Positions 40,894-61,894 of a DNA stretch of 64,000 bases are shown here, piece after piece. Origin of the DNA: Sulfurimonas sp. (GTDB lineage Bacteria; Campylobacterota; Campylobacteria; Campylobacterales; Sulfurimonadaceae); contig NZ_JAPHUF010000002.1 in the NCBI RefSeq assembly GCF_026196735.1, forward strand, positions 62,001-126,000, in the 5' to 3' direction. The notes under the pieces are model-generated. The model ran no database searches. It had not been told where the DNA came from and saw only the letters and a program-made list of their open reading frames with translations. A program made the translations under genes and the position numbers. Numbering within the stretch: the stretch's first letter is position 1; each line of letters starts with the position of its first letter.

Positions 40894-43317
40894 ATGAGAG
40901 TTGTTATAGTAGGCGGCGGTATCGCTGCAACATATTTAGCAAACAATATTAAAAAACAAAACAGTGCTTTAGAGGTCACAATTGTCAGTGATGAAAAGTA
41001 TCCTCCGTACGACAGAATACATCTTTGTCGTTTAGTAGATGATAAAAAAGACATAGGCTCTATAGCATTGCCCCTTGACCCCACAGTTAAATTGGAATTA
41101 AACCAGAAAATAATTAAAATTGACAAAGAAAATAAAAGAGTTTTTTCTGATAACTCCATGTATAGCTATGACAAGCTTATCATTGCAACCGGCTCGCGTC
41201 CTATATCACTTTTTGATGTTGAGACAATCAAAAATGCAGCCGTATTTAGAAGTGCAGATGATTGCGAGATTATAAAAAGTGAGATGAAAGATAGAGATGT
41301 TGTTATAGTCGGTGGCGGTCCTATCGGACTTGAACTTTTAGAGACAATCAATCAAATTGATGATGTCTCAAACATCATACTTATTCTTCGCGCTAAACAT
41401 CTATATGACAAAAATTTATCAAGTGATTCTATAAAACTAATACAAGAGTGTTATACTAAAAATGGAAAAATCAAGATATCTTATGAAGATGAGATAGTTG
41501 ACAAAGTAATAAAAAACAATGAAATAATTTTTCTTAAAACCAAAAAATTAGACATACAAAATCCATTTTTAGTTTTTGGAACAGGGATTGAGCCAAATAT
41601 AGAACATTTTAGAGATACTCTTAGATGCAATAAAGGAATTTTAACAAATCTTTACATGCAGACAGACGATGAAAATATTTATGCTGTAGGTGAGTGTGCT
41701 GAGATTGAAGAGCTTAATTTTGTTGCAGGACATGTAAAAGATTGCACTCAAGAAGCAAACTGCGCTATATCTCATTTACTACAGAGTGATATGCAAGAGT
41801 TCAAAAGAGAAGTTAGCATTGACATGTTAAAAGTCGGTGAGTTTGACTTGGTGGATGTCAGGTCGCCAAAATTTAGTGCAAACTTTGAAAAAGTTGTTAT
41901 AGCTTCAAAAAAAGATAATCGGATTGATGAATATTTTCTTGAGGATACTAAACTTGTCAGGTTTATCGGTATTAACTCAAATGTAGATATTGGGTATATT
42001 GAAAATCTTATAAATGATGAAGATGAAGTAGACATCAACTACTTGTATCAAAACAGACTTGTCGGGGAGAGAGGCAGACTTATATGCAGCTGTGAGCATG
42101 TCTACCATAAAGATTTAGTAGATATTGTAACCGAGACCGGAATAGGCTCATTTTCAGAGTTGGCAAATTATTCACAAGCCGGCAGGGTTTGTGGCAGATG
42201 TAAATCAATGGTTGAGGATGTTATAAAAGAGTCACAGCATCTTATAGACCCAAATATGCCAAAAAAAAGTGCACAAGATATTAAACTTGAGCAAGAAATT
42301 GAAAAAGTACAAAAAAGAATAGATAAGTTTAACACACTTCATCCAAGAAATAACCTGAGTGCTGATAATCTAGAATCAGCTATGGAGTCGCTTAATATTG
42401 CAAAAAAAGAAGTTAACAGCTGGGTATCTATGGTAACGGCAAATATGAAACTTCATCCAAATTTTGAAGATTTAGTTGAAAAAGGTGTCAAAACCCTAAA
42501 TAAAGTCCCAATTATATGGCTAGAGTTGGCAGATTGCAGCGGGAACTCAGAGGCTTTTATAAAATCAACAAATCCTGCCATAGAAGATCTTATATTTGAT
42601 TATATTTCACTTGATTATCATGAGCTTCTTATGAGTGCTAGCGGTGATCAAAGTGAGACTGTTTTAGAAGATATAATAACCAATCAAAAGGGAGAATATG
42701 TTCTTATAGTTGAAGGTGCAGTTCCATTGGCAATGGATGGAAAATACCTTCGTATCGGACCAAAAGGTGAGACGGGAATTGAGCTTTTAAGAAAATGTGC
42801 AAAAGATGCAGCTTTGGTTTTGGCGGTTGGCTCTTGTGCATTTGACGGCGGAGTTGTAGCAGCTGCTCCAAATCCAACCGGAGCTGTAGGAGTGGCAGAG
42901 GCCTTGGGTAGAGATGATATTATAAACATCTCAGGGTGTCCTACAAATCCCACAAATATAGTCGGGACTCTACTCTCATACATAATGTTTGAAGAGTTGC
43001 CGGCACTAGATAAATATAATCGTCCTCTTTGGGCATACGAGGGAAGAATTCATGACAACTGCGAAAGACGCGGTCACTATGAGCTAGGCGAGTTTGTAAA
43101 AGAGTGGGGAGACGAGGGTGCAAAAAAAGGTTACTGTCTTTTTGAGATGGGCTGTAAAGGTCCATACGCACATGTAAACTGCCCAACCATGAAGTTCAAC
43201 AGTAGTACAAGCTGGCCTGTTCAGGCTGGGCATGGATGTATGGGATGTACGGAGTTAGGTTTTTTTGATAAGTTTGCAAACGAGAGAAAATATGTCGAGG
43301 AGCAAAACAATGAATAA
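40894..43317 (+). CDS. Fusion: NirB-like FAD/NAD(P)H reductase + BFD [2Fe-2S] + [NiFe]-hydrogenase small subunit
   Basis: An 807-residue cytoplasmic protein with three modules. Residues ~1-310 form a pyridine nucleotide-disulfide-type reductase like the N-terminal half of NirB (FAD loop VVIVGGGIAAT, NAD loop VVIVGGGPIGLE, second FAD motif IYAVGECAE). Residues ~395-445 form a BFD-like [2Fe-2S] domain (Cys398, Cys400, Cys433, Cys436). A helical linker leads to a [NiFe]-hydrogenase small subunit from ~540 to the end, aligning with HyaA-type subunits: VGSCAFDGG, SGCPTNP, GCKGPYAHVNCP, GHGCMGC. The second proximal Cys is Asn551 (DCSGNSEAF). No Tat signal or membrane anchor is present, so the enzyme is cytoplasmic. 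Likely H2:NAD(P)+ or H2:ferredoxin oxidoreductase with the large subunit downstream. Confidence 0.93.
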   Translation: MRVVIVGGGIAATYLANNIKKQNSALEVTIVSDEKYPPYDRIHLCRLVDDKKDIGSIALPLDPTVKLELNQKIIKIDKENKRVFSDNSMYSYDKLIIATGSRPISLFDVETIKNAAVFRSADDCEIIKSEMKDRDVVIVGGGPIGLELLETINQIDDVSNIILILRAKHLYDKNLSSDSIKLIQECYTKNGKIKISYEDEIVDKVIKNNEIIFLKTKKLDIQNPFLVFGTGIEPNIEHFRDTLRCNKGILTNLYMQTDDENIYAVGECAEIEELNFVAGHVKDCTQEANCAISHLLQSDMQEFKREVSIDMLKVGEFDLVDVRSPKFSANFEKVVIASKKDNRIDEYFLEDTKLVRFIGINSNVDIGYIENLINDEDEVDINYLYQNRLVGERGRLICSCEHVYHKDLVDIVTETGIGSFSELANYSQAGRVCGRCKSMVEDVIKESQHLIDPNMPKKSAQDIKLEQEIEKVQKRIDKFNTLHPRNNLSADNLESAMESLNIAKKEVNSWVSMVTANMKLHPNFEDLVEKGVKTLNKVPIIWLELADCSGNSEAFIKSTNPAIEDLIFDYISLDYHELLMSASGDQSETVLEDIITNQKGEYVLIVEGAVPLAMDGKYLRIGPKGETGIELLRKCAKDAALVLAVGSCAFDGGVVAAAPNPTGAVGVAEALGRDDIINISGCPTNPTNIVGTLLSYIMFEELPALDKYNRPLWAYEGRIHDNCERRGHYELGEFVKEWGDEGAKKGYCLFEMGCKGPYAHVNCPTMKFNSSTSWPVQAGHGCMGCTELGFFDKFANERKYVEEQNNE

Positions 43318-43329
43318 TCTTGCCAAAGG

Positions 43330-43365
43330 CAAAGCTTCAGTGAGAGGAATTTTTTCTGGGCTTTG
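43330..43365 (+). other. Intercistronic stem-loop between hydrogenase small and large subunit genes
   Basis: CAAAGC at 43330-43335 pairs with GCTTTG at 43360-43365, and inside them CAG (43338-43340) pairs with CTG (43356-43358). A smaller TTGCC-AAA-GGCAA hairpin just upstream overlaps the first arm. There is no T-run, so it is not a simple terminator. It may tune the ratio of the two subunits or mark an RNA-processing site. Confidence 0.4.
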
Positions 43366-43386
43366 CTCAGTAAAAAGGAGATTGAT

Positions 43387-45057
43387 ATGAACAAGAAGAA
43401 AAAAATTGTCATTGATCCAATCACACGAATAGAGGGACATTTAAGAGCTGAGGTGGAAGTGGATGAAGATGGAGTTGTTAAAGAAGCTTATGTAAGCGGG
43501 CAGCTTTTTCGCGGCATTGAGACCATACTTAAAAATCGTGATCCAAGAGATGCAGGACTGATGGCAGGCAGAATCTGTGGTGTATGTACAAATTCTCATT
43601 TTCGTGGAGCCATAACTTGCGTGGAAGATGCTTACTCTATAGAAGTTCCCAAAAATGCTGAAATCATCAGAGACCTTGTTTCAATGGCTCTTTTTATTCA
43701 AGACCATGTTGTGCATTTTTATCATCTTCACTCTTTGGATTTTGTGGATGTCACAAGTGCACTTGCAGCTGATGCTAAACTGACATCCAAAGAGGCACAT
43801 AAATACTCTGATAGACCATTTAGAAACTCACATGCTCACTATAAACAAGTAATCGCAAAACTTCAAAACTTTGTCAAAGCCGGAAAACTCGGTCCGTTTA
43901 GCAACGGTTATTGGGGACATAGTGATTATAAGCTAACTCCTGAGCAAAATCTAGTTCTAATATCACACTATTTAGAAGCTTTGAAGTTTCAAACAAATAT
44001 TAGTAAGGCTATTGCTATTTTTGGCGGTAAGACACCGCACCCTCAAACATTGGTAGTCGGCGGAGTTACAAGCGTGGCTGACATGTTAAATCCTGCAAGA
44101 CTCAATGACTACTTATTTATAATAAAAGAAGCAAAAGAGTTTGTGGATCGTGCATATCTGCCTGATATGAAGCTGATTGCTACGGCTTATAGAGATGAGA
44201 TTAAAGCAGGACTTGGAAGAGCTAACGGTAACTTTATGTGTGTTGGCGGATATGAGTTTGAAGGTGAGCGAAAACTTTTTTGCAGCGGGATAGTTTATAA
44301 TCATGATTTAGAGAATATTCATGAATTTGATGAGAGCAAAATAAGTGAAGAGGTTGACCGTGCTTGGTACAAGGAAGATGGTGAAATTGAGTATACAGAT
44401 TTAAATGAAGACGGAAGTCTGAAAACTGCAAAAAACGATGACAAATATTCATGGATAAAAGCTCCAAGATATGATGGTAAAACAATGGAGACCGGACCTT
44501 TGGCAAGAGTTTTGATAAGTTATAAAAAAGAAAATAAACTTATAAACTCTTTTGTAGATGAGTTTTTAAAAGATACCGAGCTGGAGTTGATGGATTTATC
44601 TTGCACTATTGGAAGAAATGCAGCTAGGGCTATCGAGAGCGGTTATATCTGTGAGTATATCTTAAAGCTTGTATCAAGACTGATACAAAATATAAAATAC
44701 TATGATACGGATACATGGACTAAATATGACTTTGAAAAATTGCCTAAGCAGACAAAAGGAAGATCATTTTTAGAAGTGCCTCGCGGAGTTTTATGTCACT
44801 TTGTAAATATTAAAGAAGCTAAAATTGATAACTACTCAGTTATAGCGCCGACTACATGGAATGCCACTCCTAAAAATTTTGACGGTTTAAGAGGAGCTTA
44901 TGAGGAGGCTTTGATAGGTATAAAAATAGCAGATACTTCAAAACCGCTAGAGGTATTAAAAGTTCTTCACTCCTTTGACCCATGCCTTGCCTGTGCCGTA
45001 CATATTATAGACACTAACGGCAACGAGCTTAGCTCTTATAAAATTAAAACTCTTTAA
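43387..45057 (+). CDS. [NiFe]-hydrogenase large subunit (group 1/2-like, cytoplasmic)
   Basis: Catalytic subunit carrying the Ni-Fe(CN)2CO centre. Both metal-binding Cys pairs are present: RICGVC in the L1 motif (GRICGVCTNSHFRG) and DPCLAC in L2 (SFDPCLACAVH). A 14-residue tail follows the L2 His and should be clipped off during maturation. Start set at 43387 (MNKKKKIVIDP) because GGAG precedes it; an ATG at 43363 lacks this. Product 556 residues. Its partner small subunit is the upstream fusion; assignment to group 2 rests on the absence of export signals in the pair. Confidence 0.95.
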   Translation: MNKKKKIVIDPITRIEGHLRAEVEVDEDGVVKEAYVSGQLFRGIETILKNRDPRDAGLMAGRICGVCTNSHFRGAITCVEDAYSIEVPKNAEIIRDLVSMALFIQDHVVHFYHLHSLDFVDVTSALAADAKLTSKEAHKYSDRPFRNSHAHYKQVIAKLQNFVKAGKLGPFSNGYWGHSDYKLTPEQNLVLISHYLEALKFQTNISKAIAIFGGKTPHPQTLVVGGVTSVADMLNPARLNDYLFIIKEAKEFVDRAYLPDMKLIATAYRDEIKAGLGRANGNFMCVGGYEFEGERKLFCSGIVYNHDLENIHEFDESKISEEVDRAWYKEDGEIEYTDLNEDGSLKTAKNDDKYSWIKAPRYDGKTMETGPLARVLISYKKENKLINSFVDEFLKDTELELMDLSCTIGRNAARAIESGYICEYILKLVSRLIQNIKYYDTDTWTKYDFEKLPKQTKGRSFLEVPRGVLCHFVNIKEAKIDNYSVIAPTTWNATPKNFDGLRGAYEEALIGIKIADTSKPLEVLKVLHSFDPCLACAVHIIDTNGNELSSYKIKTL

Positions 45058-45070
45058 AAAAGTAGTTCAT

Positions 45071-45589
45071 ATGGCTAAAAATATAGTTATCGGGGTTGGA
45101 AACCTACTCCTTAGTGATGACGGAATAGGAGTGATAAGCACATCTTATTTGAGAAAAAACTTTGCTTTTGAACCAGAACTTGAACTGCTTGACGGTGGGA
45201 CACTCGGGTTTAATCTTATTGAGTATTTTCTCAACTACGATAATGTTTTTATAATCGATACTATTTCAATAGATGATGAAGCCGGTTCACTCTATAAAAT
45301 CCCATCACAAGAGTTACTTGGCGGCACAAAATATAAAAATACGGCTCATGAAGTAGAAGTAGTGCAGATGCTTGAAGCTTGTGAACTTTACGATAAAAAA
45401 GCAAATATTACAATCTTTGGTATCGTGCCAAAGGATATCAATAGCATGAAGATAGGATTGAGCAAAAGCCTGATAGAAAACTTTGACATGTTAATAGAGA
45501 CTATAATAAAAAATATTCAAGAGTTAAATATAAAAGTTACAAAAAAAGCCAACTTTACACTTCAAGACATAATCAAAGAGTTTGGATAA
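45071..45589 (+). CDS. Hydrogenase maturation endopeptidase (HupD/HycI family)
   Basis: A 172-residue M52-family protease that removes the C-terminal tail of the large subunit after nickel insertion. Signatures: GVGNLLLSDDGIGV with the first metal-binding acid, LLDGGTLGFNLIEYF, and the conserved His in NTAHEVEVVQ. It lies 13 bp after the large subunit that has such a tail, whereas the Ech large subunit in this window has none. It therefore probably serves the soluble enzyme only. Confidence 0.93.
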   Translation: MAKNIVIGVGNLLLSDDGIGVISTSYLRKNFAFEPELELLDGGTLGFNLIEYFLNYDNVFIIDTISIDDEAGSLYKIPSQELLGGTKYKNTAHEVEVVQMLEACELYDKKANITIFGIVPKDINSMKIGLSKSLIENFDMLIETIIKNIQELNIKVTKKANFTLQDIIKEFG

Positions 45590-45598
45590 GATATTGAC

Positions 45599-46291
45599 AT
45601 GTTAAATTTTAAAGAATTTGTATTATCACAAGTAGGGAAGATATTTATAATAGGCGTGCTGTTATTTATCCTGTATTTAGGTGCTATTGGCGGTATATAT
45701 CTTTACTCATCGGAGGATGCTCACAATATAGTAATTATGACTTTTGCCAATCTGTTTTTTGGAAGAGCGGCAGGAATCTCTTTTGGTTTTTCAGCACACT
45801 TTAGCGATATAGCGATTATGCTTATAAATATGTTTATAGAGTTTTTAACTGTTATGTTGATATATCCCTTTTTTGTCCTCAGTTGGGAAAAATCACTGGA
45901 TATAAAAATGCTAAGAAGCTTTTTTATCAAGGTAAAAAAGCAAAAAATTAAGTACAAAGACCTTTTTGAGAAATATGGTAAATATGGACTTTTCTTGTTT
46001 GTCTGGTTTCCATTTTGGATGACAGGACCGGTTGTGGGTGCAATAATAGGTTTTTTAATAGGCATAAAACACTACACAACCATGTTTATAGTACTTGCGG
46101 GAACATTTCTGGCAACAGCGATATGGACATATTTTTTAAAAGAGCTAATAGCTTTGTTAAATTATCTAAGTTCTCACGGTGCATATATTATTTTAGCTAT
46201 ATTTATAGTACTTGGCATTGTTTTAAAACTAAAAAAAAGTAAAAAAACAAAAATCAAGAGAGAGGCGGATGATTTAGATGACAACATATAG
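45599..46291 (+). CDS. Small multidrug-export (COG2426) family membrane protein
   Basis: Inner-membrane protein of 230 residues with about five helices and the family motif around WFPFWMTGPVVGAIIG. The family name 'small multidrug export' is historical; no substrate is established. It sits between the two hydrogenases and overlaps echA by 14 bp. A link to ion or metabolite movement with Ech is only inference. Confidence 0.7.
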   Translation: MLNFKEFVLSQVGKIFIIGVLLFILYLGAIGGIYLYSSEDAHNIVIMTFANLFFGRAAGISFGFSAHFSDIAIMLINMFIEFLTVMLIYPFFVLSWEKSLDIKMLRSFFIKVKKQKIKYKDLFEKYGKYGLFLFVWFPFWMTGPVVGAIIGFLIGIKHYTTMFIVLAGTFLATAIWTYFLKELIALLNYLSSHGAYIILAIFIVLGIVLKLKKSKKTKIKREADDLDDNI

Positions 46292-48041
46292 CATACTCAT
46301 CATTGCTCCTCTACTATTCGCTTTTAGCGTGTTGTTTGGTGGGTTAAGAGTCCGAAATGTACTGACAGTTGTCTTTGTCCTTTTTTTGGCTGGAGTAAGT
46401 TTGACAAATATTTTCTTGGTAAGCTCTTCTACACAAATTTTATTTTCGCCTTTATTACATTATCTTTTTATTTTACTTGATTCTATTGTCCTTATATACT
46501 TTTTGTGGCAGGGGGTTATTAAAAAACACAACTTGGTGACTTTTTTTGCTCTGCTTCAGATGATGCTCTATGCAGCTGTTGTATTTTTCTCATCTTCGAT
46601 TACTTCGAGTGATATTTTAATCGATGAGATATCTTCGACAATGTACCTTGTCATCAACATTGTAGGTGGGATAATCATAGTTTATGCTCTTGGGTATATA
46701 GAGAGTGAAAAGTTTTCAAGGTTTAAGAAAAACGGTTTTATAGCGCTGCTGTTTTTCTTTTTATCTATTATGAATTTTATTGTCTCAACAAATAATATTG
46801 AGATATTCTTTTTGTTATTTGAGCTGACAACATTGTGTTCATACATATTGATAGCATATCATGGAGATGAAGTCTCAAGCGAAAATGCTCTAAAAGCTCT
46901 CTGGATAAATCAGATAGGCGGAGTGGCTATTTTAATCGCTTTGATTGTTTCAATAACCCAGTATGATACGGTATATTTTGACATGTTAATAAATAATATT
47001 AATGAACTCTATCTTTTACCAATCGTATTTTTGACAATTGCAGCATTTGTAAAAGGTGCGAGCATACCTTTTGATAAATGGCTGCTTGGTGCTATGGTGG
47101 CTCCAACTCCTGTAAGTGCGATGCTCCATAGTGCTACAATGGTAAAAATAGCACCATATTTGATGCTAAAACTTGCCCCTGCCATGAGCGGATTTGTCTC
47201 TTTGAGTATTACGCTGATTGGTACATTCGTGTTTTTTTCAGCATCACTGTTAGCTCTTAGCAAGGACTATTTTAAAGAGATACTTGGGCTTTCGACCATT
47301 GCACTTTTAGCGCTTATGATGGCTCTTGCAGCTATAGGAACAAAGGAGGCCACAACAGCCTGCTTGGTTTTGATAGTGTTTCATGCCATTTCAAAAGCAC
47401 TGCTGTTTTTACAAGCTGCAATACTAGAAAAAAGCTTCAATCTAAAATATGTCAATGACATAAATGGTCTGATAAATCACTCACCTTTTGTGGTCTTATT
47501 TATTGTGGTCGGTTTTGCCTCGCTTACGCTTCCTCCATTTGGGGCATTTGTTGCAAAGTTTATGGCCATAGAATCAATAGCAAATGAAATAGGCAACAAT
47601 CCTCTTTATGTTCTGGCTCTAATATTTATAGCTCTTGGGAGCGTCTTTTTAACACTATTGTATTTCAAAGTACTTACCAAGCTTTTGGCAAAAGATGTGA
47701 GCCAAGAAAAAGAAATACATGTAGACATACCAAAGCTTTTTACTGTTCCCTCATTTGCTCTTTTGGCTTTGCTGGTTATGGGTGTATATGTTCTTTATGA
47801 AAAAGAGTTTTTAACTACTGCTCAGGTTTTTGTCCCTGTTGTACTTATAGCTGTTGTGCCTCTTTTGTTTGCAACACTGCTTTTTAAAAAGGCTCACAGA
47901 GTTAAAGAGTATCACTGCGGTGAAAAAGAAGAACCGCAACTTAACATGTACTATTTTGAGATAGCTCGCAGTTACAAAATGGCTATTACGGTAGTTGCTA
48001 CAGTATTGATTTTAGTACTTATCTTGGGGGCGATGTTATGA
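46278..48041 (+). CDS. echA: Ech-type hydrogenase ion-pumping subunit A (NuoL/HyfB-like)
   Basis: Large antiporter-like membrane subunit of 587 residues with about 14-16 helices. The hallmark loop is FDKWLLGAMVAPTPVSAMLHSATMVK, with the conserved Lys of the ion channel in FVKGASIP. It is homologous to NuoL/M/N and HycC/HyfB, which couple electron flow to H+ or Na+ movement. It begins the gene order A-B-C-D-E-F known for Ech hydrogenase. Overlaps at both ends indicate one operon. Confidence 0.92.
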   Translation: MTTYSILIIAPLLFAFSVLFGGLRVRNVLTVVFVLFLAGVSLTNIFLVSSSTQILFSPLLHYLFILLDSIVLIYFLWQGVIKKHNLVTFFALLQMMLYAAVVFFSSSITSSDILIDEISSTMYLVINIVGGIIIVYALGYIESEKFSRFKKNGFIALLFFFLSIMNFIVSTNNIEIFFLLFELTTLCSYILIAYHGDEVSSENALKALWINQIGGVAILIALIVSITQYDTVYFDMLINNINELYLLPIVFLTIAAFVKGASIPFDKWLLGAMVAPTPVSAMLHSATMVKIAPYLMLKLAPAMSGFVSLSITLIGTFVFFSASLLALSKDYFKEILGLSTIALLALMMALAAIGTKEATTACLVLIVFHAISKALLFLQAAILEKSFNLKYVNDINGLINHSPFVVLFIVVGFASLTLPPFGAFVAKFMAIESIANEIGNNPLYVLALIFIALGSVFLTLLYFKVLTKLLAKDVSQEKEIHVDIPKLFTVPSFALLALLVMGVYVLYEKEFLTTAQVFVPVVLIAVVPLLFATLLFKKAHRVKEYHCGEKEEPQLNMYYFEIARSYKMAITVVATVLILVLILGAML

Positions 48042-48862
48042 TTGAAGTTATTCTTATAATAGTCGCACCGATAATAGGCGGTTTGATATATGGTCTTGAG
48101 AGAGTTGTTCGTGCTCGCATGCAGCGCAGACAGGGTCCTCCGATTTTACAACCGTTTTATGACATGTTAAAACTCATAGATAAACAGGCTTTGATAGTAA
48201 ACCCATATCACTCCATCTTGGGCATTATGCATTTTGTAACTCTGTGGGTTGTTGTCGCCTTCGTAGTCTTGGGGCAGAATCTGCTCTATATAATCTTTTT
48301 GCATCTTCTCTCAGCCATATTTTTAATCATCGCAGGTTTTAGTGCAAAGTCTATTTACTCTCATATAGGTGCAAATAGAGAACTGCAGGCTATGATAGCG
48401 TATGAACCGATTTTGATTATGACAGCTGTAGGTTTTTATATGATTAACGGTAGTTTTGATATATCTGTTATACGAAACAACACTTCAGAGATAGCGGGGT
48501 TGTTTTTAATCTTTTTAGCCTTTTTAATGATTATACCTATAAAACTGAAAAAGTCTCCATTTGACGCTACCGAAGCACATCAAGAGATAGTTGGAGGTGT
48601 TGAGATAGAGTACAGCGGTATATTTTTTGAGTTTTTATATATGGCAAAATGGCTTGAATATGTTTTTATCTATCTTCTTCTTATGCTGTTTGCAGGTGAC
48701 AGCCTGATACTTGGAGCAGTTTTGTCAGTTACTGTGTTTTTACTGGTTAATCTCGTGGATAACTCTACGGCGAGAATTAAGATGAAACACCTGATAAAAA
48801 TAGTTTTAGGCATAGGTTTGAGCCTCTCTATGATTAACCTGATAGGACTTAGTTATGTTTGA
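48038..48862 (+). CDS. echB: Ech-type hydrogenase membrane subunit B (NuoH-like)
   Basis: A 274-residue, ~8-helix membrane subunit homologous to NuoH/HycD. It anchors the soluble arm. Signatures are RRQGPPILQPFYDMLKLI near residue 28, ELQAMIAYEPILIM near 117, and the acidic KSPFDATEAHQEIVGGVEIEYSG near 170. ATGA overlap with echA; 8-bp overlap with echC. Confidence 0.94.
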   Translation: MIEVILIIVAPIIGGLIYGLERVVRARMQRRQGPPILQPFYDMLKLIDKQALIVNPYHSILGIMHFVTLWVVVAFVVLGQNLLYIIFLHLLSAIFLIIAGFSAKSIYSHIGANRELQAMIAYEPILIMTAVGFYMINGSFDISVIRNNTSEIAGLFLIFLAFLMIIPIKLKKSPFDATEAHQEIVGGVEIEYSGIFFEFLYMAKWLEYVFIYLLLMLFAGDSLILGAVLSVTVFLLVNLVDNSTARIKMKHLIKIVLGIGLSLSMINLIGLSYV

Positions 48863-49397
48863 TTTTAAACCAATTAGAAAAAAGTCACCATGGATACTGC
48901 ACTATAATGCAGGAAGTTGTAACGGATGCGATATTGAGATACTCGCTTGCCTCTCACCGAAGTATGATATTGAGAGATTTGGAGTCATCAACACTGGTAA
49001 TCCAAAACAATCAGATGTATTTTTAGTCACAGGTCCGGTTACATTTAGAAGCAGAGAGAGACTTATAGAGCTATATACCCAGATGCCTGAACCAAAGGTT
49101 GTCATGGCGGTTGGAAGTTGTACATGTACCGGCGGAGTATTTCGTGACATGTACAATGTTGAAAACGGGCTCGACAGATATATTCCGGTTGATGTTTATG
49201 TTCCAGGATGTGCAAGTTCGCCTGAACTGATTATAGATGGATTAGTTAAGGCTTTGGAGATACTGGAGTCTAAGACCAAAGAGATTGAAAAGCCCTTTAA
49301 GCTCTTTAGAGAAGCGTCATTGGACAACACTATTGTAAACAGACGAAATAGTGCACTTAAAGTAGGGGAGGACACAACAGATGATGAAAAAAATTGA
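48855..49397 (+). CDS. echC: Ech-type hydrogenase small subunit C (NuoB-like)
   Basis: Electron-transfer small subunit of 180 residues holding one proximal 4Fe-4S cluster. The four ligands are visible: CNGCDIEIL, VGSCTCTGG and VPGCASSPE. Homologous to NuoB, HycG and CooL. It pairs with the EchE large subunit. Unlike the small-subunit module in the upstream fusion, its proximal Cys set is intact. Confidence 0.95.
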   Translation: MFDFKPIRKKSPWILHYNAGSCNGCDIEILACLSPKYDIERFGVINTGNPKQSDVFLVTGPVTFRSRERLIELYTQMPEPKVVMAVGSCTCTGGVFRDMYNVENGLDRYIPVDVYVPGCASSPELIIDGLVKALEILESKTKEIEKPFKLFREASLDNTIVNRRNSALKVGEDTTDDEKN

Positions 49398-49731
49398 AAC
49401 CTCTATAGATACTCTAAAAAAAGATATTAAAGAATTTTATGATTATAAAAAGTGGCATTTTTTAACACTAAACGGTGTTGCACTTGAAGATGACATGTTG
49501 GAAATTCAGTGGATATTTTCAGAGTATGAAGTTAAAAATAAGATAGTTGTTTATTATGCACATATCAAATATGACGAGCTTATACCATCCATAGTAGAGA
49601 TAATCCCATCGGCAATAATCTCACAAAGAGAGATAGTGGATATGTTCGGCGTAGAGGTTGAGGGAAGCCAAAAGGGACTTTACCTTGATGAGGATTCTCA
49701 GCAAAAACCACTAAGCGGGTGTTCAATATGA
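49381..49731 (+). CDS. echD: Ech-type hydrogenase subunit D (NuoC-like)
   Basis: A 116-residue soluble subunit of the NuoC/HycE-N family, with the typical IIPSAIISQREIVDMFGVEVEG segment (the usual P-x-A-x-x-x-E-R-E-x-x-D-x-F-G pattern). It overlaps echC by 17 bp and echE by ATGA. As in Ech of methanogens, it is a separate polypeptide rather than fused to the large subunit. Confidence 0.92.
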   Translation: MMKKIETSIDTLKKDIKEFYDYKKWHFLTLNGVALEDDMLEIQWIFSEYEVKNKIVVYYAHIKYDELIPSIVEIIPSAIISQREIVDMFGVEVEGSQKGLYLDEDSQQKPLSGCSI

Positions 49732-50813
49732 AAAAGACAATAAATATACCAATAGGCTCACAACATATTGCACTGCTAGAGCCTGTAAGGTTTAAGTTTG
49801 AGTGTGAAAATGAGAAGATAGTAGGTGTTGACTCAGATGTAGGTTTTGTTCATAGAGGCATAGAAAAAGCATGTACAACAAAGTTTAAATATGACGCCAT
49901 TGGATATGTTGTTGCGAGAGTATGCGGACTCTGTGCCATTACCCACTCTATGACATATACGGCTTCTATAGAAAAACTAATCGGCGGTGAGATAACGCAA
50001 AAAGCAAAGTATCTGAGAATTTTACTACTAGAACTAGACAGAATCCACTCGCATATGCTCTGTTTGTCTCATACATGCGAAAATGCCGGTTTTGAAGCAA
50101 TGTTTATGCGTATTATGGGTGACAGAGAAGATATTATGGAGATACAAGAACTCATAACTGGAAATAGAGTGCAGTTTGATTATATAAGTATAGGCGGAGT
50201 TAACAGAGACATAGATGCCGCTTTGGCTAAAAAAATTCTTAGTAAACTGGAACTTGTCAGACAAAAAGTACTTGGATATATGGATGAATTTACAAACAAC
50301 TGGAGCTTATCTTTGAAGTTTAAAGGTGTTGGAATACTCACTCTTGATGATGCTTACAGATTTAATGCTATTGGACCCTTGGCTCGCGCATCAGGAGTGC
50401 AAGCAGATGTAAGAAACGAGATAGATTACCTTCCCTATAATGAAATCGGCTTCAAGATGCAAAAGCATACAGAGGGTGATATAAATGCAAGAAACCTTAT
50501 AAGACTTAATGAACTGCTAAACTCAATAGAGATGTGCAATAACATTCTTGAAGGCTTGCCTGAGGGTGAAATATTTACAAAGCTAAGAGGAAAGCCAAAT
50601 GGTGAAAGTGTAGTTAGGTTTGAAGCTCCTCGCGGAGAGCTGATGTACTATGTAAAAGCAAACGGCAGTGCTATGCTTGAGAGGGTTAGGATAAAAACAC
50701 CTACATTCTCTTCTATACCTGCGTTTTCACATATTTTTACGGGTGCTAATTATGCAGATGCACCTGCGATTTTGGCATCTTTTGACCCATGCCTCTCGTG
50801 TACGGCAAAGTAG
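49728..50813 (+). CDS. echE: Ech-type hydrogenase large subunit E (NuoD-like, Ni-binding)
   Basis: Catalytic group 4 [NiFe] subunit of 361 residues. Both metal-binding pairs are intact: RVCGLC near residue 65 and DPCLSC at the very end. These pairs separate it from true complex I NuoD. The protein stops three residues after the last Cys (CTAK), so no maturation tail is present. Start set at the ATG at 49728 that overlaps the echD stop, in preference to a GTG nine bases earlier. Confidence 0.96.
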   Translation: MKKTINIPIGSQHIALLEPVRFKFECENEKIVGVDSDVGFVHRGIEKACTTKFKYDAIGYVVARVCGLCAITHSMTYTASIEKLIGGEITQKAKYLRILLLELDRIHSHMLCLSHTCENAGFEAMFMRIMGDREDIMEIQELITGNRVQFDYISIGGVNRDIDAALAKKILSKLELVRQKVLGYMDEFTNNWSLSLKFKGVGILTLDDAYRFNAIGPLARASGVQADVRNEIDYLPYNEIGFKMQKHTEGDINARNLIRLNELLNSIEMCNNILEGLPEGEIFTKLRGKPNGESVVRFEAPRGELMYYVKANGSAMLERVRIKTPTFSSIPAFSHIFTGANYADAPAILASFDPCLSCTAK

Positions 50814-50823
50814 AGGTGAGATT

Positions 50824-51216
50824 ATGTTAACATCATTTTTTAAAGCACTTGCGAATCTTTTTAAAACACCAAAGACTATAGACTACCCTTTGACGCCTAT
50901 AGCAAAAGATGAAAAATACAGAGGTGTGATAGAGTATAATCAAGATGAGTGCATATACTGTTTAAAGTGTGAAAAAGCGTGTCCACCGGGAGCCATACTC
51001 TTCGTGCCGGTAGATAATCCGCCAATAAATGAGAAGAACAAAAAAGGCTTGAAGTATCACTACAATCCACACCTTTGTATCTACTGCAGCGAGTGTGTAA
51101 GAGCATGTCCAAAACCGCAAGAAGCTCTTTGGCAGAGTAATAAAAAAGGACACATTGGTATTAAAGATGATAAAATAAACGATGATTGGTTTGAACTAGA
51201 AGAGTTAAAAAAGTAA
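50824..51216 (+). CDS. echF: Ech-type hydrogenase ferredoxin subunit F
   Basis: A 130-residue polyferredoxin with two 4Fe-4S motifs, CIYCLKCEKACP (near residue 43) and CIYCSECVRACP (near residue 86). It is homologous to HycF/NuoI and passes electrons between ferredoxin and the EchC cluster. Start set at 50824, where GAGGTGAG is correctly placed; the frame is open further upstream but would lie inside echE. Confidence 0.95.
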   Translation: MLTSFFKALANLFKTPKTIDYPLTPIAKDEKYRGVIEYNQDECIYCLKCEKACPPGAILFVPVDNPPINEKNKKGLKYHYNPHLCIYCSECVRACPKPQEALWQSNKKGHIGIKDDKINDDWFELEELKK

Positions 51217-53959: not shown

Positions 53960-54133
53960 ATGAAGTATATAATGATATCTCAAATATTTTTAAGCGGTTT
54001 GTTCGCTCATGGTTTTGCCCATGAACATTTGCATTTTTTTGACTCTTTACATGTAGAGTATTTTGTTCTGTTTATAGCCGGATTGGTGAGTGCATTTTTC
54101 ATATATGAAAAAGTGTTTAAAGGCAATCGTTAA
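53960..54133 (+). CDS. Small His-rich membrane protein coupled to hypB
   Basis: A 57-residue protein: a short hydrophobic N-terminal stretch, a His-rich loop (AHGFAHEHLHFFDSLHVEYF, six His), then one helix (about 35-50) and a basic end. AAGGA precedes the ATG and the stop overlaps the hypB start (TAATG). Position and His content suggest a Ni2+-related membrane role with HypB, possibly a reduced HupE-like protein. I know no named family. Confidence 0.75.
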   Translation: MKYIMISQIFLSGLFAHGFAHEHLHFFDSLHVEYFVLFIAGLVSAFFIYEKVFKGNR

Positions 54134-54894
54134 TGTGCCAAGATTGTGGATGTAGCATTACTGAGCATAGCCATGATGCAGACGAACATACTCATGATAT
54201 GCAAAATGTCCATGCAAATCCACAGCTAAATAACAAAATAACCGTAGATGTAATCACAAAGATTTTAGACAAAAATGACCACGAAGCAGGGCATAATCGC
54301 GCTCACTTTGAAAAGCACGGAGTTTTGGCCATAAACCTTATGAGCAGTCCCGGCAGCGGAAAGACAGCACTACTAGAAAAGATTGCTGACATGTCGAAGT
54401 TTAAATTTGGTGTTATTGAGGGTGACTTGGAGACAAGTAGAGATGCAGACAGACTAAAAGCAAAGGGAATCCCCGCGTATCAGATACAAACAGGCTCAGC
54501 TTGTCACTTAGATGCCTTTATGGTTCATAAGGGACTTCACGATATGCCTCTCTCTGAGATAGATGTATGTTTTGTTGAAAATGTAGGCAACCTTGTCTGT
54601 CCAGCTTCATACGATGTGGGAACACATCTAAACATAGTTTTGGTGAGTGTTCCTGAGGGAAATGACAAGATAGAAAAATACCCTGTTATGTTTAGAAAAG
54701 CCGACTTGGTCCTCATCACAAAAACTGACCTTCTGCCGTATATAGATTATGATGTAGAAGCAGAGAAAAAAGAGGCGAGAAAACTAAAACCAAATGTTGA
54801 CATATTGGAAATTAGCATAAAAGATGATGACTCAATCAAAAAGGTCATAGAGTGGATAGAAATCAAAAGGATGCAACATGAAAAAAACAGTTGA
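54133..54894 (+). CDS. hypB: Hydrogenase nickel-insertion GTPase HypB
   Basis: GTPase that delivers Ni2+ to the large subunit with HypA. The N-terminal CQDCGC matches the high-affinity nickel site and a His-rich stretch follows (EHSHDADEHTHDMQNVH). P-loop SSPGSGKTALLEKI, metal-site CHLDA, CFVENVGNLVCPA and the G4 motif KTDLL are present. Length 253 residues is typical. It overlaps the following hydrolase by 17 bp. Confidence 0.96.
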   Translation: MCQDCGCSITEHSHDADEHTHDMQNVHANPQLNNKITVDVITKILDKNDHEAGHNRAHFEKHGVLAINLMSSPGSGKTALLEKIADMSKFKFGVIEGDLETSRDADRLKAKGIPAYQIQTGSACHLDAFMVHKGLHDMPLSEIDVCFVENVGNLVCPASYDVGTHLNIVLVSVPEGNDKIEKYPVMFRKADLVLITKTDLLPYIDYDVEAEKKEARKLKPNVDILEISIKDDDSIKKVIEWIEIKRMQHEKNS

Positions 54895-55666
54895 CGGACT
54901 ATCTCTCTTTATTGAGGGTAACAGCAAAAATAGAACAATTGTTTTTATACACGGTTTCCCCTTCAACCATAGCGCTTGGCAAGCACAGATTGAGATGTTT
55001 AGTGCAGATTACTACTGTATAGCGTATGATATCAGAGGACTTGGAGACTCTGTTGTTGGCGATGGGCAGTTTACGATGGAATCTTTTGTTGATGATCTCT
55101 CTACGATAATAGATAAGATGAGCTTGGACAAACCTATTTTATGCGCTCACTCTATGGGTGGGTATATCTCTCTAAGAGCGTTACAGAGAATGCAGGAGAG
55201 ATTCTTGGCTGTTATTTTACTAGATACCGTTTCAGGTGCTGACAATAATGAAGGCAAATTAAAAAGAGCAGCTGCCATTAAGAAAATAAACAGTGAAGGA
55301 TTGACTCCCTTTGTAAAAGATTTTATCACACTTTGTTATGGCGAGCTTTACAAGAGAGAACATTTAGAAGATTTTCAAAAGAGGATTGATTTATCGGCCT
55401 CATATAATCCTTTAGGTGTTAAAGGGTGTTTGCTGGCAATGCTAAGCAGAAATGATACAACACAATACTTAAGCAGTATAACAATTCCATCTCTTTTGAT
55501 ATGCGGGGAAGAGGATGCTCTTACCCCTCCTTCTGCAATGAAAGAGATGTCCCAAGAGATGAAAAACTCAGAATTTGTTTTGATAAAAAACAGTGCGCAT
55601 ATGAGTGCAATTGAAAATCCTGTGGATGTAAACAGTGCTATTAAATCTTTTTTAGAAAAAGTGTAG
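54878..55666 (+). CDS. Alpha/beta hydrolase within the hyp operon
   Basis: Cytoplasmic serine hydrolase of 262 residues. The oxyanion motif is HGFPFNHSAW, the nucleophile Ser lies in AHSMGGY (near residue 90), the acid in CGEEDALTP, and the His in NSAHMSAIE. It resembles 3-oxoadipate enol-lactonase/esterase-type folds; the substrate is not predictable. It overlaps hypB and precedes hypC by 9 bp, so it is co-expressed with hydrogenase maturation. Confidence 0.88.
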   Translation: MKKTVDGLSLFIEGNSKNRTIVFIHGFPFNHSAWQAQIEMFSADYYCIAYDIRGLGDSVVGDGQFTMESFVDDLSTIIDKMSLDKPILCAHSMGGYISLRALQRMQERFLAVILLDTVSGADNNEGKLKRAAAIKKINSEGLTPFVKDFITLCYGELYKREHLEDFQKRIDLSASYNPLGVKGCLLAMLSRNDTTQYLSSITIPSLLICGEEDALTPPSAMKEMSQEMKNSEFVLIKNSAHMSAIENPVDVNSAIKSFLEKV

Positions 55667-55675
55667 GTAAAAAAT

Positions 55676-55918
55676 ATGTGCCTTTCAATACCCTCTAAAG
55701 TAACAAAAATAGACAAAGAGAGAAATGTTGCTACTGTTGACACTATGGGTGTGAGTAGAGAAGCCAGTTTAGACCTTATGGAAGATGGAGGTGTCGAGGT
55801 GGGAGACTATGTTCTTTTACACATTGGATTTATTATGAATAAGATTGATGAAGCTGATGCTATCTCCTCACTTGAAGCATACGAAGAGGTACTTAAGATA
55901 ATGGACGAAGAAGAATGA
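55676..55918 (+). CDS. hypC: Hydrogenase assembly chaperone HypC
   Basis: An 80-residue chaperone that carries the Fe(CN)2CO unit with HypD. It begins with the essential MCLSIPSKV (Cys2), has VGDYVLLHIGFIMNKID, and ends with an acidic helix. Only one HypC/HybG homologue is visible, although two hydrogenases are encoded. ATGA overlap with hypD. Confidence 0.95.
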   Translation: MCLSIPSKVTKIDKERNVATVDTMGVSREASLDLMEDGGVEVGDYVLLHIGFIMNKIDEADAISSLEAYEEVLKIMDEEE

Positions 55919-57042
55919 GTAAAACTCTTCAACTAAAAGAGCTCTACACAGAGTTTAGAAATCCTGATACTATAAAGTCGTATGCTTCTCTGATAAAGCA
56001 AGAGGCTAAAAAACTTGAACGCGATGTCAGTATTATGGAAGTGTGCGGAGGACATACCCATACCATTATGAAGTATGGTCTTTTACAGCTTCTTCCCAAA
56101 AATGTACACTTCATTCATGGTCCCGGCTGTCCTGTGTGTATAATGCCAAAAGAGAGAGTAGACCATGCCATAGCGCTCTCAAAACAACCTGATGTCATAC
56201 TTGTCACTTTAGGCGATATGATAAAAGTACCCGGAAGTGAAGCAAGCCTGCAAGACGCAAGAGCAAAAGGTGCTGATGTAAGGTTTGTTTACTCTCCTAC
56301 AGACTGTTTAAAAATAGCCGAGCAAAATCCTGATAAAACAGTTATATTTTTTGCCATAGGTTTTGAGACGACTACACCTATGACATCTGCTTTGATAAAT
56401 CAGGTTATAAACAAAAATATTAAAAATATTCTGTTTCATATCAATCATGTAACAGTTCCAGAGCCAATGCGTGTTTTACTTGATGATGATGAAAATAAGA
56501 TAGATGCATTTATCGGTCCTGCACATGTAAGCGTAATAACCGGAAGTAAGATTTACGATGAATTCCCAAGAGACTACAAAAAACCTGTTGTGGTAAGCGG
56601 TTTTGAACCTGTGGATGTCATACACTCTGTGCTGATGATACTTAAACAATTCAATGAAAATAGATGTGAGGTTGAGGTTGAGTACAGTAGAAGTGTAAGT
56701 CATGATGGAAATGTAGTTGCACAAAAATTAAATGACATGTTCTTTGAGAGAAGGGACACTTTTAGATGGCGGGGTGTCGGTGAGATACCTAAAAGTGCTT
56801 TAAAATTAAAAGATGAGTACTCCTACTTGGATGCTGAAGTTACTTATGCAGAAATATTGCCAAATGAAAAAATAGACGATCATAAGCTATGTATATGCGG
56901 TGATATTTTAAAAGGAAAAGCAAATCCAATAGAGTGTAAAGTCTTTGGCAATGCATGTAAACCCTCAAGCCCTCTTGGAAGCTGTATGGTCAGCAGTGAA
57001 GGAGCTTGTGCGGCTTACTATAAATATGGCGGTATATTATGA
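55915..57042 (+). CDS. hypD: Hydrogenase iron-centre assembly protein HypD
   Basis: Scaffold where the Fe(CN)2CO group is built. CGGHTHTIMKYG, HGPGCPVCIMP and GFETTTP are present, plus the C-terminal 4Fe-4S Cys set (CICGDILKG, CKVFGNACKP, SCMVSSEGAC). Length 375 residues is standard. Overlaps hypC and the SixA-like gene by 4 bp each. Confidence 0.97.
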   Translation: MSKTLQLKELYTEFRNPDTIKSYASLIKQEAKKLERDVSIMEVCGGHTHTIMKYGLLQLLPKNVHFIHGPGCPVCIMPKERVDHAIALSKQPDVILVTLGDMIKVPGSEASLQDARAKGADVRFVYSPTDCLKIAEQNPDKTVIFFAIGFETTTPMTSALINQVINKNIKNILFHINHVTVPEPMRVLLDDDENKIDAFIGPAHVSVITGSKIYDEFPRDYKKPVVVSGFEPVDVIHSVLMILKQFNENRCEVEVEYSRSVSHDGNVVAQKLNDMFFERRDTFRWRGVGEIPKSALKLKDEYSYLDAEVTYAEILPNEKIDDHKLCICGDILKGKANPIECKVFGNACKPSSPLGSCMVSSEGACAAYYKYGGIL

Positions 57043-57545
57043 AAAAACTCTACATAATCAGACACGCAAAATCAAGCTGGAAAGATTTAGAGATTGATGA
57101 TTTTGACAGACCTCTCAACAAAAGAGGCAAGCAAAATGCTCCTTTTATGGGAGAGAAACTAAAAGAAAAAGAGATTATGCCAGACATGATTATCTCAAGC
57201 CCGGCATTAAGAGCAAAAACTACAGCAGAGATAATTGCTAAAAAAATGAACTATACAAAAGAGGTATTTTTCAATCAAGATCTTTACGAAGCGGATGCAA
57301 CAACTCTGCATAATATTTTGAGTAAGATTGATAATGAAAATAGTGTTGTGTTTTTGATTGGACACAATCCTGAGTTAAACATGCTAGCTGAAATATATGT
57401 CGGTTTTGATGAAAACATACCTACTTGCGGTGTTTTAGAGGTTGAGTTTAACTGCGATAGATGGATAGACATAGGAGCAAACAATGCTAGACTCGTATCG
57501 TTTGATTATCCCAAGAGATATAACGAAGTCAAAACCGATATTTAA
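57039..57545 (+). CDS. SixA-like histidine phosphatase
   Basis: A 168-residue phosphohistidine-phosphatase superfamily protein. The catalytic RHG-type motif is IIRHAKSSWKD (His9). A second Arg is in SSPALRAKTTAEII and the second His in LIGHNPELNML. E. coli SixA acts on phosphohistidine in relay proteins. Here it overlaps hypD by ATGA and closes the first hyp run. A histidine kinase lies 3 kb downstream; a link is speculative. Confidence 0.88.
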   Translation: MKKLYIIRHAKSSWKDLEIDDFDRPLNKRGKQNAPFMGEKLKEKEIMPDMIISSPALRAKTTAEIIAKKMNYTKEVFFNQDLYEADATTLHNILSKIDNENSVVFLIGHNPELNMLAEIYVGFDENIPTCGVLEVEFNCDRWIDIGANNARLVSFDYPKRYNEVKTDI

Positions 57546-57672
57546 AAAGCTTAAACAAAACCTAAAAAAATAACCTACTTATAAAACAATAAGAAGCTTA
57601 AAAGTTAAATCGGATAAAATTTGTCTGATTTAAAAATACTAGAGCGTAATGCGTTCTTAACAAGGATACACA

Positions 57673-57807
57673 ATGAAAACATTGATTTTATTAATCGGAC
57701 TAACACTAGGTGCTCTTCAAGCTGACAATATCGTAGCATACGATACTAAAAACGGCAACAATGCTGAGACTATTAAGCCTAACTACCCAAGTCAAGAACT
57801 TTACTAA
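57673..57807 (+). CDS. Secreted mini-peptide (44 residues)
   Basis: Signal peptide MKTLILLIGLTLGALQA followed by only 27 mature residues ending in YPSQELY. AAGGA precedes the ATG, a TAAAAT at 57616-57621 could serve as -10, and a strong terminator starts 22 bp after the stop. This complete transcription unit argues for a real gene. No Cys, no recognised family. It may be a small periplasmic peptide or part of a regulatory transcript. Confidence 0.65.
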   Translation: MKTLILLIGLTLGALQADNIVAYDTKNGNNAETIKPNYPSQELY

Positions 57808-57828
57808 AAGCTAAGTTCTTTTTCCTCT

Positions 57829-57858
57829 AGCTCGCCTTTTACGGCGGGCTTTTTTTTT
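57829..57858 (+). terminator. Strong rho-independent terminator
   Basis: AGCTCGCC (57829-57836) pairs with GGCGGGCT (57843-57850) around a 6-base loop, followed by at least eight T. It is the clearest intrinsic terminator in the window. It separates the ech/hypBCD run plus mini-peptide from the hypE-A-F run. Confidence 0.9.
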
Positions 57859-57949
57859 CTTTTTTTACTCAAAATCCTCAAACATACTTTTTAATCATCC
57901 AAATATAAAAAATTATCATCAAAATCTTACTATCTGGCATACTTTTCGC

Positions 57950-57955
57950 TAAAAT
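57950..57955 (+). promoter_or_regulatory. -10-like TAAAAT for the aldo/keto reductase-hypEAF run
   Basis: TAAAAT downstream of the terminator. The expected start is near 57962 and leads into AAAAGG and the ATG at 57978. It would drive the second hyp transcription unit. Confidence 0.5.
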
Positions 57956-57977
57956 ATTTAAAATGAAAAGGTTAAAT

Positions 57978-58997
57978 ATGCAATACAGATACATAGGAAA
58001 AACAGGGCTAAGAGTTACGCCGATTTGTTTGGGAACTATGAGCTTTGGTTCTTGGAGCGATGAGGCAGAGTCTTTTAAAATTATGGACAAAGCAGTAGAC
58101 TTTGGTATAAACTTTTTTGATACAGCTGAGCTTTATCCTGTACCACCAAGAGCGGAGTATGCAGGTGAGACTGAGAGTATTATCGGCAGATGGCTCAAAG
58201 GCAGACAAAGAGATAAACTAATAATTGCTTCAAAGGTTGCAGGAGCGGCTAACGGCTGGTTCGTCCCGCCTATCCGCCATGGTATGACTGCTATTGATAA
58301 GTTTCATATCAAAAAGGCAGTAGAGGGAAGTCTTAAACGCCTTGGCACTGAGTATATTGATTTGTATCAGATGCATTGGCCTGATTCTATAGTGCCTATC
58401 GAAGAGTCCTTAAGAGCATTTGATGAGCTGGTACAAGAAGGCAAGGTCAGATACCTTGGAACTTCAAATGACACCGCTCACGGACTTACAAAAGCAAATG
58501 AGACATCCAAGAGATTGGGAATTTCCAGATTTGAGTCTATACAGAATAACTTCTCTTTAAACAATCCGCGCTTTTTGGATGAGCTTTCACATGTATGCAG
58601 CAAAGAAGATATTTCACTGCTTGCTTATTCGCCAATAGCCGGTGGAGTTCTTAGCGGAAAGTATAATGGAGAGTTTTACCCTGATGTTGCAAGGTTTGCA
58701 GAGTATTTAAAAAACGGCGATAAAAGAGGACTGGCTCAAAGTCACAGATTTGTAAATGAGAAATCATTGGCTACAACTGCAAGATATATGGACATAGCAA
58801 AAAAGCTTGACATGTCAGTAGTGACATTAGCTGTTGCCTACTCAAAACAGTTCTCCTTTGTAGCTTCAACTATCATCGGTGCGAGAAATGCCAAACAACT
58901 TGATGAATCGTTTGCAGCCATGGATGTAGTCTTATCTGATGAGACAATGGCCGAGATAAAAGCTGTACAACAAGAAATTATGTACCCGATGGGATAA
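57978..58997 (+). CDS. Aldo/keto reductase
   Basis: NADPH-dependent oxidoreductase of 339 residues, TIM-barrel AKR family. It begins MQYRYIGKTGLRVTPICLGT. The catalytic Asp/Tyr lie in NFFDTAELYP, the Lys in IIASKVAG and the His in YQMHWPD; the cofactor site is STIIGARNAKQLDE. Closest in form to the Tas/YajO type. Start set at 57978 because AAAAGG precedes it; an ATG at 57963 sits almost at the expected transcript start. It is 2 bp before hypE. Confidence 0.9.
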   Translation: MQYRYIGKTGLRVTPICLGTMSFGSWSDEAESFKIMDKAVDFGINFFDTAELYPVPPRAEYAGETESIIGRWLKGRQRDKLIIASKVAGAANGWFVPPIRHGMTAIDKFHIKKAVEGSLKRLGTEYIDLYQMHWPDSIVPIEESLRAFDELVQEGKVRYLGTSNDTAHGLTKANETSKRLGISRFESIQNNFSLNNPRFLDELSHVCSKEDISLLAYSPIAGGVLSGKYNGEFYPDVARFAEYLKNGDKRGLAQSHRFVNEKSLATTARYMDIAKKLDMSVVTLAVAYSKQFSFVASTIIGARNAKQLDESFAAMDVVLSDETMAEIKAVQQEIMYPMG

Positions 58998-58999
58998 AT

Positions 59000-59989: not shown

Positions 59990-60010
59990 AATGCTTACAA
60001 AGGTATTAAG

Positions 60011-61519: not shown

Positions 61520-61548
61520 CAGAAGCTATCGTTATAAGGTCATAAATT

Positions 61549-61890
61549 ATGCATGAATACTCTATAGTTCAATCTTTAATTGAGAGTTGCCAAGAACATG
61601 TAAAAGCAAACGATGCTACTAGAGTGACAAAAGTGGAAGTAAAAATAGGTGTTCTTAGCGGAGTAGAACCGCATTTATTAAGAGAAGCATTTGATACATT
61701 CAAAGAAGAAACTATTTGTCACGAGGCTGAGTTTGTAATGAATATTCAAAAGGTAAAAATACATTGCAACAGCTGTAAGCAAGAGACAGAGTTAGAAAAA
61801 AATGAGTTTGTTTGTCCTAAATGTGGCAGTTATGAGCTTAATGTCCTTGATGGCGAAGAGATGTATCTTATGAGTTTGGAATTAGAGTAG
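61549..61890 (+). CDS. hypA: Hydrogenase nickel-insertion protein HypA
   Basis: A 113-residue nickel chaperone. The N-terminal MHEYSIVQSLI supplies the nickel-binding Met-His-Glu. The zinc site has two CXXC pairs (CNSC and CPKC). Works with HypB. It is 4 bp before hypF. Confidence 0.96.
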   Translation: MHEYSIVQSLIESCQEHVKANDATRVTKVEVKIGVLSGVEPHLLREAFDTFKEETICHEAEFVMNIQKVKIHCNSCKQETELEKNEFVCPKCGSYELNVLDGEEMYLMSLELE

Positions 61891-61894
61891 TATC

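Follow-up and report, generated by a model that had tools for sequence, protein, structure and literature searches.

A hydrogenase small subunit of 813 aa that includes a fused N-terminal pyridine-nucleotide oxidoreductase module has been known since 2006, when Scott et al. described it for Thiomicrospira (Hydrogenovibrio) crunogena XCL-2, as relayed in two later papers (PMC4744846, PMC6501319). The same type was discussed again by Hansen and Perner in 2016, who reported it for Sulfuricurvum kujiense, Sulfurovum sp. AR, S. autotrophica, A. nitrofigilis and T. microaerophilum (PMC4744846), and by Gonnella et al. in 2019 for SP-41, in which expression of a fusion-type gene peaks with H2 as the sole donor and hydrogenase activity was found in the membrane fraction (PMC6501319). 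XCL-2 itself showed no H2 use, its fractions were inactive, and the [Fe-S] sites of the XCL-2 type were termed not conserved (PMC4744846). For twenty years no function has been assigned to the fusion, in part because its Fe-S sites seemed defective and its best-known bearer is inactive. These publications also mean that the novelty implied by an initial annotation of the locus described below, which was made from the DNA letters alone, was mistaken.

The window analyzed here is a 64,000-nucleotide stretch of a Sulfurimonas sp. genome (2.19 Mb in 25 contigs). Positions 40894-43317 on its forward strand form one unbroken ORF with an ATG start and no internal stop, encoding 807 aa whose nearest relatives are Sulfurimonas proteins. 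The initial annotation read this frame as three modules, a NirB-like reductase, a BFD [2Fe-2S] domain and a [NiFe]-hydrogenase small subunit, and the Pfam search that it suggested returned all four domains above gathering score: Pyr_redox_2 at residues 1-273 (5e-44), Fer2_BFD at 396-446 (2e-9), Oxidored_q6 at 548-695 (6e-28) and NiFe_hyd_SSU_C at 715-795 (4e-29). Among NCBIfam models, TIGR02374 (NirB) aligns to residues 1-447 over only model residues 1-468 of 794, such that the siroheme half that defines a NirB nitrite reductase is missing, and TIGR00391 (HydA) aligns to residues 491-797 over model residues 4-308. In fold searches, the reductase module matches putidaredoxin reductase, BphA4 and AorC (the last at rank 44). 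The small subunit has PDB hits 8pou_S and 5xvb_S; no solved structure spanning both halves was found in the PDB. The N-terminus is a Rossmann fold from its first residues, with no signal peptide. The protein divides as follows:

40894-42078, + strand: NirB-like FAD/NAD(P) reductase module, residues 1-395 (Pyr_redox_2, TIGR02374, fold matches)
41389-41391, + strand: Arg166, at the end of the second Rossmann beta-2 strand (Arg in 89/91 fusions; Glu in the HVIEFAP motif of E. coli NirB)
42079-42231, + strand: BFD [2Fe-2S] domain, residues 396-446, with C398, C400, C433 and C436 (Fer2_BFD; all four Cys invariant among 91 fusions)
42232-42360, + strand: variable linker, residues 447-489, the least conserved part (47% mean pairwise identity versus 53-78% elsewhere)
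42361-42498, + strand: remnant of the Tat signal peptide of an exported HydA, now a linker within the protein, residues 490-535 (residue-by-residue alignment, hydropathy)
42499-43284, + strand: [NiFe]-hydrogenase small-subunit core, residues 536-797 (Oxidored_q6, NiFe_hyd_SSU_C; PDB 8pou_S, 5xvb_S)
42535-42546, + strand: proximal motif CSGN, residues 548-551, with Asn551 replacing the second Cys of CxGC (alignment; CAGN in Tat-exported relatives)

Together with the large subunit encoded downstream, the fusion is, in our reading, probably a soluble cytosolic H2:NAD(P)+ oxidoreductase derived by rewiring an exported hydrogenase. The identical full-length architecture at about 90 independent loci, obtained by the cross-genome search that had also been suggested, excludes a frameshift or assembly artefact, and in essentially all of the 91 fusions that we aligned, the FAD and NAD(P) glycine loops and the four BFD cysteines are intact, as the initial annotation had stated. 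Full-length fusions occur in 12 of 200 Campylobacterota genomes and, the window's own copy aside, are 55-80% identical. Scanning a single genome per species yielded 80 loci on named contigs, nearly all from Campylobacterota (Sulfurimonas, Sulfurovum, Sulfuricurvum, Sulfurospirillum, Arcobacteraceae and Hydrogenimonas), with two from Thiomicrorhabdus-type Gammaproteobacteria; within the Thiomicrorhabdus order, 6 of 63 genomes carry it. The window fusion is 53-57% identical to the S. kujiense, Sulfurovum sp. AR and Thiomicrorhabdus proteins. No relatives of the hydrogenase large subunit were found on viral contigs.

Residues 490-535 align residue by residue to the SRRDFLKWASATTAMLMLPxxF region of exported relatives, either without gaps or with one residue deleted at the arginine pair, and the TIGR00391 alignment, which begins at model residue 4, further supports this homology. 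Ahead of the core, exported small subunits of this phylum have, for example, LEDEGVSRRDFLKWASATTAMLMLPSSFTPLVAEAAELMTRVPVIWIELQDCAGNSEAF; fusions have, for example, LESFEMSREFNRWISMITASMHLHPQFEEVVGEGVTQLNKIPIIWLELADCTGNSEAF, and the window fusion has MESLNIAKKEVNSWVSMVTANMKLHPNFEDLVEKGVKTLNKVPIIWLELADCSGNSEAF. The arginine pair is kept in 0/91 fusions, the mean hydropathy of the stretch is 0.07 versus 0.96 in exported enzymes of the Asn type and 1.05 in those of the Cys type, and the number of charged residues rises from about 0.3 in exported enzymes to 1.7 in fusions. W510, M513 and L520 are invariant in 91/91 fusions, with S512 and P522 nearly so; the segment is therefore under constraint and presumably has a new structural role. 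It is a decayed Tat signal, which explains the missing Tat motif by the decay of an ancestral one. With its arginine pair and hydrophobic core gone, the signal persists as a linker; the enzyme would therefore stay in the cytoplasm, with its electrons passing to NAD(P) and not to quinone.

In a tree of small-subunit cores, 25 fusions form a single clade (100/100), which is placed beside 16 Tat-exported CAGN-type enzymes with support that is not decisive (90/74). The large-subunit tree also resolves one fusion clade (100/100); its sister-group test gave an AU p of 0.43, and the placement of the fusions as sister to the CAGN-type exported enzymes is thus favoured by the small-subunit tree only. 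When E. coli Hya and Gammaproteobacterial enzymes are included, both subunits fall within the Campylobacterota group 1 enzymes. Gammaproteobacterial fusions are nested within those of Campylobacterota in the small-subunit tree (97/89 and 100/95) and likewise in the large-subunit tree, which indicates that the fusion was passed from Campylobacterota to Gammaproteobacteria. The fusion has a single origin, in which an NADH-oxidising NirB-like half would have been placed ahead of a small subunit from the Tat-exported group 1 (1b-type) hydrogenases. The product has neither the twin-arginine signal nor the cytochrome b partner of a respiratory membrane-bound group 1 enzyme. Assignment to group 2d, the Aquifex Hase III type, was rejected, since the group 2-like small subunit encoded in this genome (L006) and its relatives form a separate, distant clade with 100% support. 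The same genome has a second hydrogenase locus (L048, 8250-14719), in which a group 2-like pair is followed by a Tat-exported group 1 pair; the latter shows SRREFM and CTGC and is accompanied by a cytochrome b gene and a protease.

Across the 91 aligned fusions, the distal ligands H720, C723, C748 and C754 and the medial ligands C763, C782 and C785 are kept in essentially all sequences, and Pro775 is conserved. At the proximal site, three of the four Cys ligands are likewise kept, and the fourth is Asn. This Asn is found in 12/12 fusions of the 200-genome set; the corresponding count in the 80-locus set is biased, as the scan patterns contained the motif, a bias from which the 12/12 set is free. 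The substitution, together with the inactivity of XCL-2 and the description of its [Fe-S] sites as not conserved (PMC4744846), speaks for a reading, suggested for the XCL-2 type, in which degraded Fe-S sites have left an impaired or non-catalytic protein that acts as a sensor or is a relic. However, every other ligand is unchanged across about 91 fusions, whose small-subunit cores are 78% identical on average. The 69 fusion-associated large subunits likewise show no variation in their Ni/Fe ligands or in the PRG and RIEGH motifs, and they retain the C-terminal extension for the protease. Nor is the Asn peculiar to the fusion: many Tat-exported small subunits of group 1 have CxGN, those of group 2 have CNGN, and all three small subunits found in an S. 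kujiense genome bin carry Asn, the species being a reported H2 user (PMC4744846). The proximal Asn, which seems to be common among Campylobacterota hydrogenases, is therefore no argument for a dead enzyme. This comparison removes the sequence argument for inactivity; we regard an impaired protein as quite improbable and favour a catalytic H2:NAD(P)+ oxidoreductase. The group 2-like CNGN sequences include those at L006 1459-2340, L122 12726-13622 and L125 13922-14881.

The reductase module contains the FAD motifs GxGxxA/G, ATGS and YAVGE, and Cys45, which lies near FAD in this fold family, is kept in 90/91 fusions and is Ser in NirB. In glutathione reductase, an Arg at the place equivalent to Arg166 binds the phosphate of NADPH, so the replacement of the NADH-type Glu by Arg166 may make NADP the better acceptor. 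We take the predicted preference for NADP over NAD as a hint only; the GxGxxG loop of the fusion partly points to NAD. In NirB, electrons run from NADH to FAD to [2Fe-2S], and the NirB half thus normally oxidises NADH. This family behaviour and the reversibility of hydrogenases are what one would cite for the same enzyme running backwards, as a redox valve through which an over-reduced cell would turn NAD(P)H into H2. The group 1-type wiring, with its three-Cys medial site and conserved Pro775, is instead expected to bias the enzyme toward H2 oxidation, and expression in SP-41 peaks with H2 as the sole donor (PMC6501319), making a redox valve unlikely.

For the favoured direction, H2 oxidation by the cytosolic enzyme, the NiFe site in the large subunit (43363-45057) would cleave H2, and electrons would pass to the small-subunit clusters, the [2Fe-2S] cluster, FAD and finally NAD(P). 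This path, which the initial annotation had proposed, fits all the sequence evidence and is the best hypothesis, with uncertainty in how the domains pack. AlphaFold modelled the hydrogenase part poorly from a 12-sequence alignment; with 100 sequences, the pLDDT was 82 and the pTM 0.57, and we therefore make no claim on domain packing or on contact between the BFD domain and the distal cluster. The related FAD modules AorC and PadH come from enzymes in which electrons of the substrate are handed to NAD+. A working precedent for transfer from Fe-S to FAD to NAD+ is the tungsten aldehyde oxidoreductase (AOR), which contains AorC and which two papers describe as using NAD and as able to take electrons from H2 (PMC10413684, PMC9295118).

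The genes following the fusion are arranged as follows:

43363-45057, + strand: [NiFe]-hydrogenase large subunit, which probably begins at ATG 43387 (NiFeSe_Hases 1.4e-194; Ni/Fe ligands invariant in 69)
45071-45589, + strand: hydrogenase maturation protease of the HyaD/HybD type (HycI Pfam, TIGR00072)
45599-46291, + strand: small membrane protein PF06695 within the hydrogenase row (Pfam; also in L049 and L063)
46278-51216, + strand: six-gene Ech-type (group 4) hydrogenase row (NuoL-, NuoH-, NuoB-, NuoC- and NuoD-like genes and a 4Fe-4S ferredoxin-like gene)
54133-64000, + strand: hypB, hypC, hypD, hypE, hypA and hypF, with other genes interspersed (hypF extends beyond the window)

The cognate large subunit lies directly downstream of the fusion in 78/86 loci, and G060 and G177, the two genomes examined among those that lack this adjacency, encode it elsewhere. 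At least four Ech-type genes adjoin the fusion in a minority of loci (18/90), and other hydrogenase or hyp genes lie nearby in 27/41 well-covered loci, counts in which some genomes appear twice. Several individual loci depart from this order: between the fusion and the large subunit, we observe inserted NB-ARC/TPR and Uma2 genes (L040, 7118-10022), Fic, AbiEii and nucleotidyltransferase genes (L110, 10463-12965) and an opposite-strand block (L092, 2513-5363), and in one metagenome assembly, both genes are split into several frames, probably by sequencing errors (L118, 8001-12516). The NuoD-like subunit of the window's Ech-type hydrogenase (49719-50813) ends right after DPCLSCTAK and thus lacks a C-terminal peptide on which a maturation protease could act.

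The Sulfurimonas genome carries ATP-citrate lyase and POR-type genes, and in hosts with a reductive TCA (rTCA) cycle, cytoplasmic hydrogenases of group 2 have been proposed to supply ferredoxin (PMC2628731). Such a host would be served by a fusion that reduces ferredoxin, directly or by flavin bifurcation, and so feeds the cycle itself, an idea also raised in the initial annotation. It finds no specific support in the locus, because there is one FAD domain, no ferredoxin-like domain and no conserved adjacent gene for a second flavoprotein, and the adjoining Ech-type hydrogenase is the natural ferredoxin donor. We consider this role highly improbable. The oxidoreductase that we favour would use H2 to provide the NAD(P)H needed by the host to fix carbon, and the Ech-type enzyme would supply reduced ferredoxin. 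A comparable arrangement is reported for Desulfurobacterium, also an rTCA autotroph, in which 51 nt separate ech from the operon of an NAD(P)-linked hydrogenase and the two rise together at low H2 (PMC12724263).

The evolutionary part of this reading is strong; the catalytic part we infer from intact motifs and precedents. A cytosolic enzyme is favoured by the lack of a following cytochrome b gene and by the position of the fusion clade beside Tat-exported enzymes of the same phylum; against the H2:NAD(P)+ oxidoreductase as a whole count the inactivity of XCL-2, the activity of SP-41 in its membrane fraction, the proximal Asn, the uncertain predicted packing and the minority of loci with Ech neighbours. 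More tentatively, and as a proposal that we hold plausible but short of probable, one fusion event may have moved a periplasmic respiratory hydrogenase into the cytoplasm and switched it from quinone to NADPH, with the dead Tat signal becoming a structural linker and the Asn already in place; with the adjacent Ech-type hydrogenase, this would make a two-enzyme set giving both rTCA reductants straight from H2. The NAD(P)H supply from H2 in rTCA Campylobacterota is still discussed as reverse electron transport, to which a direct H2:NAD(P) enzyme, if real, would be a simple and testable answer. The initial annotation had recognized the domains and the path but overlooked the decayed Tat signal, the proximal Asn and Arg166. 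In the publications covered by our analysis, we found no mention of the decayed Tat signal, of the single fusion clade beside Tat-exported enzymes and its transfer to Gammaproteobacteria, or of the shared Asn argument and the Arg166/NADP hint.

When compared to known systems, the fusion shares with NirB the FAD/NAD module and BFD [2Fe-2S] domain, which span NirB residues 1-468, but has a hydrogenase small subunit in place of the siroheme/4Fe-4S C-terminal half, and it has Arg where NirB has Glu at the position contacting the NAD(P) ribose, and Cys45 where NirB has Ser near FAD. The FAD subunits AorC and PadH have the same reductase fold and likewise serve as NAD modules on Fe-S enzymes, whereas there they are separate subunits of other enzymes. 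The NAD-reducing Hox enzymes (group 3d) catalyze the overall reaction predicted for the fusion. Hox enzymes have a different small subunit and rely on HoxFU, an FMN diaphorase that has no relationship to the NirB module, and no HoxF or HoxU diaphorase genes occur in the gene row of the window. The Tat-exported, membrane-bound group 1 (1b-type) enzymes of Campylobacterota are close in their core (45-50% identical), in the CxGN that many of them carry and in the homologous Tat region; unlike the fusion, they keep a functional RR signal, and the copy encoded in the genome of the window adjoins a cytochrome b gene, whereas the fusion has a reductase module, no RR and no cytochrome b. Finally, judged by the published description of XCL-2, the XCL-2 type, a group 1b hydrogenase also called hydrogenase cluster I, shares a small subunit of about 810 aa, an N-terminal pyridine-nucleotide oxidoreductase and the lack of a Tat motif and of cytochrome b. 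The window fusion belongs to this type, with 807 aa comprising Pyr_redox_2, BFD and small subunit, no RR in the former signal region (as in all 91 fusions) and no cytochrome b gene within 43363-51216, and it differs only in sequence detail and in its neighbourhood, where an Ech-type row follows.
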